A stretch of 64,000 nucleotides of DNA, taken from NCBI RefSeq assembly GCF_015910535.1, contig NZ_JACBJG010000007.1, positions 124,001 to 188,000 on the forward strand. The letters run 5' to 3'. Numbering within the stretch: position 1 is the stretch's first letter; every line of letters begins with the position of its first letter. Both the position numbers and the translations under genes were made by a program. A model generated the notes under the pieces. It was given only the letters and a program-made list of their open reading frames with translations, had not been told where the DNA came from and did no database searches. Shown here piece after piece: positions 14,837-64,000 of the stretch. The DNA comes from Saccharomonospora sp. NB11 (GTDB lineage Bacteria; Actinomycetota; Actinomycetes; Mycobacteriales; Pseudonocardiaceae).

Positions 14837-14848
14837 CCGATGAACACC

Positions 14849-14932
14849 GTGTCCGCAGCCTGCGCACACGTGTCCGCACCTCGCGCACGCGTGTCCGCGG
14901 GCTGCGCGCCGGTGCCCGCACTTCCCGTACGG
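14849..14932 (+). repeat. Four 21-bp 3'-UTR repeat units
   Basis: Four contiguous 21-bp units at 14849, 14870, 14891 and 14912. Three begin GTGTCCGC and one GTGCCCGC. The block starts 12 bp after the gcdH stop, reads in the gcdH sense, and ends 2 bp before the stop of the convergent lipoprotein gene. Same family as the blocks at 35573, 36581 and 63159. Confidence 0.8.
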
Positions 14933-14934
14933 CG

Positions 14935-34666: not shown

Positions 34667-34737
34667 GCGGTCCTCCCGGTGGGCGGTGCCGTCATTTCAG
34701 GCGCCGTCGGGTCGGTGTCGCGTGAACGGCGGGTTTC

Positions 34738-34850
34738 CGTCAGCGGATGGATGCTGCGTGAGTGGGTTCCCTCGTCAGCGGACGGATGCTGTGAGCGGAA
34801 ACCTCGTCAGCGGGTCGGTACCGGGTGCGCGCGGGCGTCGTCAGCGGGTC
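34738..34850. repeat. Irregular repeats with core CGTCAGCGG in the 34667-35051 gap
   Basis: The core CGTCAGCGG recurs at 34738, 34773, 34805 and 34839 (spacings 35, 32 and 34 bp), each followed by a related 10-base segment such as ATGGATGCTG or ACGGATGCTG. This is the only structure I see in the 385 bp between ligA and the GNAT gene; no ORF there has convincing support. Confidence 0.5.
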
Positions 34851-35552: not shown

Positions 35553-35572
35553 CCCCAAGCCCCCGCCCCGGC

Positions 35573-35787
35573 GTGTCCCGACCCCACGCCCGCGTGTCCG
35601 CACTTCCCGTACGTGTGTCCGCACTTCCCGTACGTATGGCTGCAGCCGGTGTACGGCTGCCCGCGTCCTGCGCACTCGTGTCGCCGTCCTGTGCACGCAT
35701 GACGGTGACGCAGGGTGCGAACATGCGGGCATACGGCGCGAACGTGCGTGCGTGGGATGCGGACACGCGCGAGTGCGGTGCGGAGAC
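35573..35787. repeat. Convergent 21-bp repeat array (6 forward plus 4 inverted units)
   Basis: Six units in exact 21-bp register from 35573 to 35698 in plus orientation (two carry GTGTCCGCACTTCCCGTACG; units 4 and 5 are degenerate), a 5-bp centre, then four inverted units 35704-35787 ending GCGGACAC or similar. Forward units read in the sense of the GNAT gene; inverted units read in the sense of the convergent membrane-protein gene, whose stop is at 35794. The two halves can pair. Confidence 0.8.
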
Positions 35788-35793
35788 ACCGAA

Positions 35794-36580: not shown

Positions 36581-36706
36581 CGCCGAGCGTGCCGTCGACA
36601 CACGCGCACGAGACGGGGACATGCGTGTAAGGAGCGCGGACACGCGTGCACATGGTGCGAACACACGGCCGTAGCGCGAGGACACGCGTGCAGGAGGTGC
36701 GGACAC
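36581..36706 (-). repeat. Six 21-bp 3'-UTR repeat units
   Basis: Six units in exact register (36581, 36602, 36623, 36644, 36665, 36686), read on the minus strand as GTGTCCGCACCTCCTGCACG-type sequences. The block begins 4 bp after the stop of the ACT-protein gene and reads in its sense. The rest of the 36412-36710 gap shows no ORF I trust. Confidence 0.8.
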
Positions 36707-36710
36707 GCCG

Positions 36711-61544: not shown

Positions 61545-63149
61545 GTGAACCGCACGGAGCCCGCGAACACCCCGCTCGGAGACCAGTTCCACCTCTACGA
61601 CACGACGTTGCGCGACGGAGCCCAGCGGGAGGGCATCTCCTACTCGATCACCGACAAGCTGGCCGTGGCGCGACTGCTCGACGACCTGGGCGTCGGGTTC
61701 ATCGAGGGCGGGTGGCCCGGCGCGCTGCCGAAGGACACCGAGTTCTTCGCGCGGGCCGCGGCGGGCGAGTTGACCTTGCGGCACGCGGTGCTCGTCGCGT
61801 TCGGCTCGACGCGGCGGGCGGGAACAGCCGTCACCGCCGACCCGCAGGTGCGCGCGCTGCTGGACTCCCAAGCGCCCGTCGTGACGCTCGTGGCGAAGGC
61901 GGATGCCCGCCACATCGAGCGGGCGCTGCGGGTGGACGTCGACGAGGCGTGCGCGATGGTGCGCGACACCGTGTCGTTCCTCGTGAGCGAGGGCAGGCGT
62001 GTGTTCGTCGACGCCGAGCACTTCTTCGACGGCTACGCCCACGATCCCGACACCGCGCTGCGGGTACTCGACGCCGCAGGGCAGTCCGGGGCCGACGTGG
62101 TCGTGCTGTGCGACACCAACGGCGGGCAGCTCCCGTTGGGTATCGCCGACACCGTGCGGGAGGTCGCCGACCGCACCGGACTGCGACTGGGCATCCACTG
62201 CCAGGACGACACCGCGTGCGCCGTGGCCAACAGCGTCGCCGCGGTGCAGGCAGGCGCGACCCACGTCCAGTGCACCGCCAACGGCTACGGCGAACGCGCA
62301 GGCAACGCCGACCTGTTCGCGGTGGTGGGCAACCTCGTGACGAAGCTCGGGATGCCGGTGCTGCCCGAAGGGCGCGTCGCGGACCTGACGCGTACGGCAC
62401 ATGCCCTCGCCGAACTCGCCAACCTCGCTCCCGAGGAACACCAGGCGTACGTCGGTGCGTCGGCGTTCGCGCACAAGGCCGGTCTGCACGCGAGTGCGAT
62501 CAAGGTGGACCCATTGCTCTACAACCACATCGACCCGGCGACGGTCGGCAACGACATGCGGGTGCTCGTGACCGAGATGGCGGGGCGCGCGAGCCTGGAG
62601 CTGAAGGGCAGGCAGCTCGGCGTGGATCTCGCGGACAAGCCGGAGGCGCTGTCGAGTGCGTTGAAGAAGGTGAAGACGCTGGAGGCGGAGGGGTGGTCGT
62701 TCGAGGCCGCCGACGCGTCGTTGGAGCTGCTGCTGCGGGCCGAGGCCGACGAGACGGCCACCGAGGCGCCGTTCCGGTTGGAGTCCTACCGCGTCGTGCT
62801 CGAACACCGCGCCGACGGCGACGTGGTGGCCGAGGCCACGGTGAGGGTGCACGTGGGCGGAGAGCGGGTCATCGCGACCGCCGAGGGCAACGGCCCCGTG
62901 CACGCCCTCGACGCGGCACTGCGCCAGGCGCTGCGGGGTCACCTGTCCTGGTTGGACACCGTGGAGCTGGCCGATTACAAGGTGCGCATCCTCGTGGGCA
63001 AGCCGGGGACCGACGCCGTCACGCGCGTGCTCGTCGAATCGACCGACGGCGACCGGACGTGGACGACCGTGGGCGTGCACCCGAACATCGTGGAGGCGAG
63101 TTGGCTGGCCCTGTGCGACGCCTTGGTGCACAAGTCCCTGAGGCCCTGA
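61545..63149 (+). CDS. cimA: Citramalate synthase
   Basis: 534 residues, isopropylmalate-synthase family. It would condense pyruvate with acetyl-CoA to (R)-citramalate, a threonine-independent entry to isoleucine. The TIM barrel starts YDTTLRDGAQREGISYS and has GIHCQDDTACAVANSVAA, TVNGYGER-like CTANGYGERAGNADLF and GASAFAHKAGLHASA; the C-terminal LeuA-type regulatory domain runs from about residue 400 (FRLESYRVVLEHRADGDVVAEA). LeuA itself would begin differently and be longer. GTG 61545 with AAGGAG upstream. The isoleucine-rich leader supports the role. Confidence 0.92.
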   Translation: MNRTEPANTPLGDQFHLYDTTLRDGAQREGISYSITDKLAVARLLDDLGVGFIEGGWPGALPKDTEFFARAAAGELTLRHAVLVAFGSTRRAGTAVTADPQVRALLDSQAPVVTLVAKADARHIERALRVDVDEACAMVRDTVSFLVSEGRRVFVDAEHFFDGYAHDPDTALRVLDAAGQSGADVVVLCDTNGGQLPLGIADTVREVADRTGLRLGIHCQDDTACAVANSVAAVQAGATHVQCTANGYGERAGNADLFAVVGNLVTKLGMPVLPEGRVADLTRTAHALAELANLAPEEHQAYVGASAFAHKAGLHASAIKVDPLLYNHIDPATVGNDMRVLVTEMAGRASLELKGRQLGVDLADKPEALSSALKKVKTLEAEGWSFEAADASLELLLRAEADETATEAPFRLESYRVVLEHRADGDVVAEATVRVHVGGERVIATAEGNGPVHALDAALRQALRGHLSWLDTVELADYKVRILVGKPGTDAVTRVLVESTDGDRTWTTVGVHPNIVEASWLALCDALVHKSLRP

Positions 63150-63158
63150 CCCCAAGGC

Positions 63159-63415
63159 GTGTCCGCACCCCATGACGTCGTGTCGCGACTCTGTGACGCC
63201 GTGTCCGCGCCCTGTGACGTCGTGTCCGCGAGTTGCGCACGGGTGTCGGCGGTTTGCGCACGGGTGTCGGCGTCGCATGACCGCAACACGCATGCGAAAG
63301 ATCGCAACACGAGTGCGGGAGGTGCGGACACGCGTGCGGGAGGTGCGGACACGCGTGCGGGAGGTGCGGACACGCGTGCGGGAGGTGCGGACACGCGTGC
63401 GGGAGTCGAGGACAC
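63159..63415. repeat. Mirrored 21-bp repeat array, 6 + 6 units
   Basis: Six forward units in exact register (63159-63284), 5-bp centre, six inverted units (63290-63415). Forward units begin GTGTCC or GTGTCG; inverted units end GGACAC or CAACAC, three of them identical. The array begins 9 bp after the cimA stop and fills most of the 307-bp gap before the FAH gene. The two halves can fold on each other. Confidence 0.85.
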
Positions 63416-63456
63416 GCCCGGGTTGGGGCGGCGGGGGGCGGAGTTAGGATGACGTC

Positions 63457-64000
63457 GTGCGTTTGGCTCGGATCGCTCACCCGGAAGGCGTCGCGTTCGG
63501 CTCCATCGAGGCCGACGGCGACAACGACAACGACGACGCGGCGCAGGTGCTGGAGATCGCGGATCACCCGTTCGGCAAGCCGAACTACACCGGGCGGCGG
63601 TGGCCGCTCGCGGACGTCCGGCTGCTGGCTCCCATCCTCCCGTCGAAGGTCATCGCGGTGGGGCGCAACTACGCCAAGCATGCCGCGGAGCTGGGCAACG
63701 AGGTGCCCGGCGAGCCGATGATCTTCCTCAAGCCCTCCACGAGCGTCATCGGCCCTCACGCGCCCATCAAGCTGCCGCCGGCGTCGTCGCAGGTCGACTT
63801 CGAGGGCGAGCTGGCCGTGGTCATCGGCCAGCCGGTGAAGAACGTCCGCGCGGAGCAGGCTCGGGCCGCGATCCTCGGCTACACGGTCGCCAACGACGTC
63901 AGCGCCCGCGACCTGCAGGCTTCCGACGGACAGTGGGGTCGAGCCAAGGGCTTCGACACGTTCTGCCCGATCGGTCCCTGGATCGAGACGTCGGTGGACC
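63457..64000 (+). CDS. Fumarylacetoacetate hydrolase-family protein (partial)
   Basis: The first 181 codons are present; the gene runs off the window. [63 protein letters not shown] (metal-binding glutamates) and NDVSARDLQ identify the FAH fold of 2-hydroxyhepta-2,4-diene-dioate isomerase or acylpyruvase type. GTG 63457 has TAGGAT six bases upstream: probably leaderless. In M. tuberculosis the related gene Rv2993c precedes gltX. Confidence 0.9.

Follow-up and report, generated by a model that had tools for sequence, protein, structure and literature searches.

A mirrored 21-bp array behind cimA

The window, the whole 64,000-nucleotide stretch of DNA that we analysed, comes from the 4.30-Mb genome of Saccharomonospora sp. 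NB11 (G000; the other G numbers denote relatives). It carries the citramalate synthase gene cimA and, between its stop codon and the -10-like TTAGGAT of the next gene, a mirrored array of 21-bp units, with the following features.

61545..63149, plus strand: cimA, citramalate synthase (our own gene call; TIGR00977, 586.6 bits against a cut-off of 450)
63147-63149, plus strand: TGA stop codon of cimA
63158..63262, plus strand: five forward 21-bp units (starts at 63158, 63179, 63200, 63221 and 63242; the 63179 unit is degenerate)
63263..63290, no strand: 28-bp imperfect palindromic centre, with counterparts in G001, G003 and G007
63291..63416, minus strand: six inverted 21-bp units (the 63291 unit is degenerate)
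63444..63450, plus strand: TTAGGAT, a -10-like box directly before the GTG of the next gene
63457..64000, plus strand, running off the window: fumarylacetoacetate hydrolase family gene (Pfam PF01557 and PF10370)

Eight bases separate the cimA stop from the first unit, and in-phase 21-mers run forward from 63158 and, inverted, back from 63416. Across 63158-63417, identity at a lag of 21 bp reached 0.757, compared with a mean of 0.292 and a maximum of 0.389 in 2000 letter shuffles, a level that no 260-bp segment among the 3187 taken from the 64-kb window attained. Moreover, at a length of 257 bp, the strongest palindrome in the window is that at positions 63159-63415, with agreement at 54.5% of positions (window mean 29.1%, s.d. 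4.8%). These statistics confirmed the mirrored 21-bp array described in the initial annotation, which had arranged it as six plus six units around a 5-bp centre. The palindrome stood, and its register was refined: a dyad at 63276.5, in the middle of the 28-bp palindrome, gave 58.6% agreement over 128-bp arms compared to 53.9% at the originally proposed 63287, and the array is therefore described here as a 28-bp centre with five forward units before it and six inverted units after it. The units abut at 21 bp without unique spacers, in agreement with the earlier view that this is not a CRISPR. The inverted units at 63333, 63354 and 63375 are identical over 21 bases and the unit at 63312 differs at its last base only, which bears out, locally, the suggested expansion of one half of the array.

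The TTAGGAT box is present in 9 of the 12 genus genomes, G000 included, and is a candidate promoter element by its sequence; a sigma-70 promoter scan found none. No match above the gathering score of any Rfam 15 family was obtained in the window.

The unit family and its placement relative to genes

The units behind cimA belong to a genome-wide family with the 21-bp consensus CGTGTCCGCRNYYYSCGCACG. The pattern GTGTCCGCNNNNNNCGCAC, allowing at most one mismatch, was matched 264 times in the 4.3-Mb genome, compared with 22 times for its reversed control. Units were detected with an iteratively built 21-bp motif model, at a working threshold, in a sample of 864 kb of G000 (the window plus loci L031-L070), in which genes were called by our own codon model and not taken from annotation. 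Genes cover 88% of this sample (761,634 of 864,000 bases), and 247 of the 288 units were intergenic; the 41 units in coding sequence were near the level of the scrambled models, since the control models (three permuted and one reversed) yielded 27-66 sites in all from the same sample. Of 178 same-strand neighbour pairs less than 130 bp apart, 156 had a spacing of 21 bp and a further 13 one of 42 bp. Neighbouring units were 71% identical, compared with 65% for random pairs, and identical neighbours occurred in 8 of 156 instances; given that neighbours are barely more alike than random units, fresh copies do not account for most arrays. Positions 10 and 14 of the unit covaried, in the combinations A..C and G..T, and among 218 distinct units the strongest associations lay between adjacent positions.

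Several identities for the unit were considered and rejected. The spacing is a multiple of three, as a coding repeat would have it, but the variable positions show no codon rhythm, and stop-to-first-unit distances below 40 bp are spread evenly over the three frames (12, 10 and 11). Spread on plasmids or phages was likewise set aside, as no match to the array was obtained by blastn in either the plasmid or the phage collection; 12 viral stretches contained one exact tandem match each, and 0-5 units each in the unit scan, matches that we take as chance. The sequence GTGTCCGCA agrees at 7 of 9 bases with TTGTCCACA, which we take to be the actinobacterial DnaA box. The reading of the unit as a DnaA box was set aside because a repeat closer to that box, the 11-bp tandem GTTATCCACAG, is present near the beginning of the G010 sequence, where locus L168 has five tandem copies (G010:C1:2116-2169) that are probably DnaA boxes. 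A second intergenic repeat family, with GAACGGCTCCG motifs, was seen at G000:C27:93860-94460, adjoining a 21-bp array.

Placement relative to genes was distinctly uneven. Among gaps of at least 21 bp in the G000 sample, units were present in 16 of 86 between convergent genes, 28 of 310 between tandem genes and 4 of 138 between divergent genes (convergent versus divergent, P = 1.3e-4). A count of arrays of at least two units, covering the 864 kb of G000 and 100 kb each of G001, G002, G003 and G010, gave 77 arrays, with 26 in convergent gaps, 47 in tandem gaps, three in divergent gaps and one in coding sequence. The convergent arrays were closer to the gene to which they are sense in 20 of 26 cases. 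Counted by array, the orientation bias in tandem gaps was modest (31 sense versus 16 antisense, P = 0.04) since several arrays counted as antisense, the one behind cimA included, belong to mirrored arrays as their far half; when each tandem gap was given one vote, cast by its stop-proximal array, 27 of 32 were sense and 5 antisense (P = 1.1e-4). Furthermore, the first unit of the sense arrays in G000 lay no more than 12 bp from the stop in 21 of 43 cases, and exactly 3 bp from it in seven. The initial annotation had anticipated copies concentrated in 3′ regions, as opposed to copies distributed at random relative to genes; the arrays indeed sit behind stops, with few in divergent gaps or coding sequence, and a random distribution was not what we observed.

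Mirrored arrays also keep a common register. In 7 of 12 unselected cases from G000, the two halves were in one phase (length 7 modulo 21; P = 3.6e-7). By inspection, several mirrored arrays have in common a 28-bp palindromic centre of the form CGTGTYCGCRTCGYRCGAYGCGRACACG, and others have an unrelated centre with the same phase. The order was forward-then-inverted in 12 cases of the G000 sample versus the reverse in 2.

Conserved array sites with changing unit number and sequence

Orthologous gaps were compared over 224 kb of contig C27 of G000. Where a G001 orthologue was available, 7 of 9 array-bearing gaps of G000 also held an array in G001, compared with 1 of 128 arrayless gaps (P = 1.8e-9), and the corresponding figures for G003 were 4 of 7 and 1 of 114 (P = 2.0e-5). 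By inspection, the single or mirrored layout was the same at 6 of the 7 sites shared between G000 and G001. Across 36 orthologous unit pairs, which overlap between species, differences were seen in 24 of 324 cells at positions 1-9 and in 171 of 432 at positions 10-21 (P = 6e-26), a contrast that is inflated because motif-based detection favours a conserved core; positions 3, 4, 5 and 17 never differed. The unit tails are lineage-specific: GCACG or GTACG leads in four genus genomes (G000, G001, G002, G003), as it does among the small number of units from G031, G068 and G020; GTAGC and GTAGT lead in G007, and G010 has a mix of GTCGC, GTAGC and GTAGT. In the listed part of G003, no fewer than five arrays are runs of identical units, for example at G003:C1:697746-698006 and G003:C1:1192238-1192372.

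Three further arrays in the window illustrate both persistence and turnover.

14848..14931, plus strand: four-unit array between convergent genes
35572..35767, no strand: mirrored array between convergent genes
36603..36707, minus strand: array of five units following the stop codon of a gene on that strand

The convergent gap at 14837-14934 measures 98 bp and holds four forward units in G000, G001 and G003 alike, with each unit's own middle largely retained across the three species. The array of the gap at 35553-35793 is present in G000 only among four species, the orthologous gaps of G001, G003 and G010 being 31, 18 and 7 bp long and free of units. At the site orthologous to 36603-36707, G001 has five units and G003 and G010 have none. 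Conversely, the gap at 34667 carries arrays in G001 and G010 and lacks them in G000 and G003; in that same gap, 34738-34813 of the window is an unrelated 35-bp tandem repeat.

Directly after cimA, units were found in 8 of the 12 genus genomes (G000, G001, G002, G003, G007, G009, G010 and G011), and in G004, G005, G006 and G008 (82-91% complete) only 10-23 bp without units separate cimA from the next gene. The cimA reading frame passes through the units in G009 and G010 and ends within the first unit in G002. At loci L181 and L182, the frame runs on through inverted units into a short C-terminal tail of seven-residue repeats and, as translated by eye, finds its stop in the TAG of TTAGGAT. Of the 80 named cimA loci, only L071 and L072, the two nearest, show runs of units immediately behind cimA; at L088 (Amycolatopsis arida), four consecutive units lie elsewhere. 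A different repeat, with GGACACG or GGAGACG inside, follows cimA at L081 of Prauserella endophytica (two copies) and at L113 of Saccharomonospora sp. CUA-673 (one copy).

Beyond the genus the repeat is patchy. Counting two cores 21 bp apart in 297 family genomes, we found at least 109 such pairs in each of the eight genus carriers, 154 in G020, 128 in G031, 41 in G068 and 32 in G038, then seven within 3 kb of G151 and no more than three in every other family genome; the repeat is thus present in number in only 12 of the 297. Among 197 genomes of the class, none except G000 itself had more than two core pairs at this distance. By identical CimA, G020 corresponds to A. arida, G031 to Prauserella shujinwangii and G068 to Qaidamihabitans albus, and the same-genus G007 carries the CimA of S. 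piscinae. A tree of CimA groups the genus carriers in one clade (99/96), and the clade of S. iraqiensis and S. halophila lacks arrays; over the whole tree the array label needs five changes, a count in which the named rows L079 (identical to G068) and L082 (identical to G031) bore no array label. The small array cluster of G151, a genome in which units are otherwise scarce (L243, G151:C1:6285001-6300000), lies beside genes for a desaturase-reductase fusion, a GMC oxidoreductase and a NUDIX protein, and was perhaps acquired with them. The genome table of S. viridis, in the accessible part of that report, gives nine CRISPR repeats (PMC3035233). At a guess, some of these could be 21-bp arrays that a repeat finder misread.

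Possible roles and known systems compared

To our knowledge, how transcription ends in high-GC actinobacteria without T-rich terminators is not well settled. Our leading interpretation, drawn from sequence comparison and put forward tentatively, is that a stop-anchored array of a two-turn protein site marks the ends of transcription units, the protein itself being predicted. Such a protein would read each unit as double-stranded DNA, contacting CGTGTCCGC and the G at position 17, about one helical turn further on; because 21 bp makes two turns of B-DNA, proteins on successive units would line up along the same side of the helix. Placed in a row just behind the stop, these proteins would obstruct RNA polymerase or release it and keep adjacent transcription units apart; mirrored arrays would act in both directions, and the number of units would change by slippage. 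The conserved nine-base core, the constant base one turn on, the two-turn spacing, the sense orientation and the stop-adjacent seat fit a protein-bound array. Against it stand the 5 of 32 tandem gaps in which the array is antisense (an error in gene calling was considered as their cause), the gains and losses of arrays between species, the units within the cimA frame of G009 and G010, the presence of the family in number in just 12 of 297 family genomes, and the runs of identical copies in G003, as slippage alone would give. A more far-reaching and rather doubtful version would have an actinobacterial lineage marking its unit ends with phased arrays bound by a putative polar, RNA-polymerase-stopping protein, with mirrored arrays as two-way insulation and with site and protein coevolved into lineage dialects.

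Nearly as likely as a protein site is a tolerated repeat without a job, which slippage multiplies and gene conversion between sites homogenises, and which survives mainly behind genes because it does least harm there. This explains turnover and local expansion better, namely the identical-unit runs of G003, the gains and losses between species, the units inside the cimA frame of G009 and G010 and the patchy occurrence across the family. It does not, however, predict the sense orientation in 27 of 32 tandem gaps, the short distances to the stop, the same single or mirrored layout at 6 of 7 sites of G000 and G001, or a core about five times less variable than the remainder of the unit, a figure that includes the detection bias. 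Two readings at the level of RNA are less likely than either a protein site or a tolerated repeat. The initial annotation had offered a long transcript hairpin that ends transcription or protects the 3′ end, and part of its folding prediction held: compared with shuffles, the sense transcripts of the mirrored arrays after cimA gave z values of -7.4 in the window, -7.7 in G003, -4.9 in G011, -4.4 in G007, -4.1 in G001 and -2.1 in G002, as is to be expected because an inverted array must fold well, and two short one-orientation arrays folded strongly alone (z of -8.1 and -7.9). Yet the cimA orthologues of G009 and G010 gave no fold signal (z of -0.26 and -0.15), and 28 of the 48 unit-bearing gaps of the G000 sample contain units of one orientation only. 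In 44 one-orientation stretches of at least three units, mirrored halves included, the mean z was -1.07 for the C-rich strand and -0.62 for the other, no better than the -1.31 of 80 arrayless 3′ ends of 80 nt. Moreover, agreement between mirror partners did not exceed that of pairs shuffled within genomes, at 0.435 versus 0.472 for positions 10-16 (P = 0.95) and 0.574 versus 0.631 for positions 17-21 (P = 0.99), in 46 pairs from in-register arrays, most of them from G003, G007 and G001 loci chosen for their mirrored look. Nor is the A..C and G..T variation at positions 10 and 14 of base-pair type, as a hairpin inside the unit would require. No terminator-like site was found in 62900-63700, and T-runs followed 4 of 43 sense arrays, which is the background rate (564 of 5904 windows). 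These results speak against the long hairpin as the working part, and we judge a role for it unlikely.

Still less probable, in our estimation, is that the C-rich sense transcript serves as a Rho loading site, so that tandem units form a Rho-dependent terminator. The sense orientation behind stops fits this, as does the mean (C-G)/(C+G) of the unit strand, which was 0.128 in 44 arrays compared with -0.005 in 245 arrayless 3′ ends; the skew is modest, however, and missing from several arrays, and neither the 21-bp phase nor the near-invariant G at position 17 is expected of a loading site.

Among known systems, REP and BIME elements, which are associated with RAYT transposases, are short units scattered through intergenic DNA near the ends of genes, where they often form inverted pairs. 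The present units resemble them in being short, dispersed, intergenic, close to gene ends and found as inverted pairs, and many units of G007 and some of G010 have GTAG in their tails. That the units are moved by a RAYT transposase is nonetheless scarcely credible, given that the Y1 transposase family PF01797 had no match in 5 of the 8 array-bearing genus genomes (G002, G003, G009, which is 91% complete, G010 and G011); matches were obtained in 4 of the 12 genus genomes, the carriers G000, G001 and G007 among them. The units differ from REP and BIME further in their fixed 21-bp tandem spacing and lack of pairing covariation. A REP-type hairpin within the unit was rejected, as 218 units showed no base-pair covariation and, by inspection, the GTAG tail of G007 and G010 breaks the possible outer pairs. 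Streptococcal BOX, mycobacterial MIRU and enterobacterial ERIC elements are likewise dispersed intergenic repeats, variable in copy number in some cases; their unit length and sequence differ from ours, and we know of no 21-bp stop-anchored mirrored layout among them.

We know of no natural competence in Saccharomonospora and of no DNA uptake sequence with tandem 21-bp arrays as a trait. An uptake or recognition sequence like that of the Neisseriaceae, with species dialects and inverted pairs at gene ends, is very unlikely here, although the short conserved core, the tails that differ between lineages and the inverted pairs at gene ends would suit it. According to the accessible part of one report, the Neisseriaceae sequences share these features, having a short core, dialects and inverted pairs linked to terminators and gene ends, and intragenic copies are common (PMC3630211). 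By comparison, the units described here stand in 21-bp tandem arrays, and although 88% of the sample is coding, only 41 of the 288 fall within genes, close to what the scrambled models give. The TAACTGA direct repeats of Beggiatoaceae, as far as the accessible part of the source describes them, are alike in forming many intergenic sets of short direct repeats in a bacterial genome and differ in sequence and unit length (PMC4679880).

In a literature search, no description of a 21-bp repeat of this kind appeared in the titles and abstract openings among the matches listed, and the earlier statement that it belongs to no named family held, none having been found. Dispersed intergenic repeats are a known kind; the stop-anchored, phased and mirrored 21-bp arrangement with lineage tails matches no family known to us. 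A repeat that is anchored to stops, kept at many gene ends across species and phased at two turns is a testable candidate for a protein-based gene-end mark, and the same sites with different unit tails in each carrier lineage make a compact case for the joint change of dispersed short repeats. Sal-box terminators, which stand in tandem behind mammalian rRNA genes and are bound by TTF-I, are alike in placing a tandem array directly behind a gene, the protein site being putative in our case; they serve one eukaryotic gene family, whereas the arrays described here stand behind many different genes.
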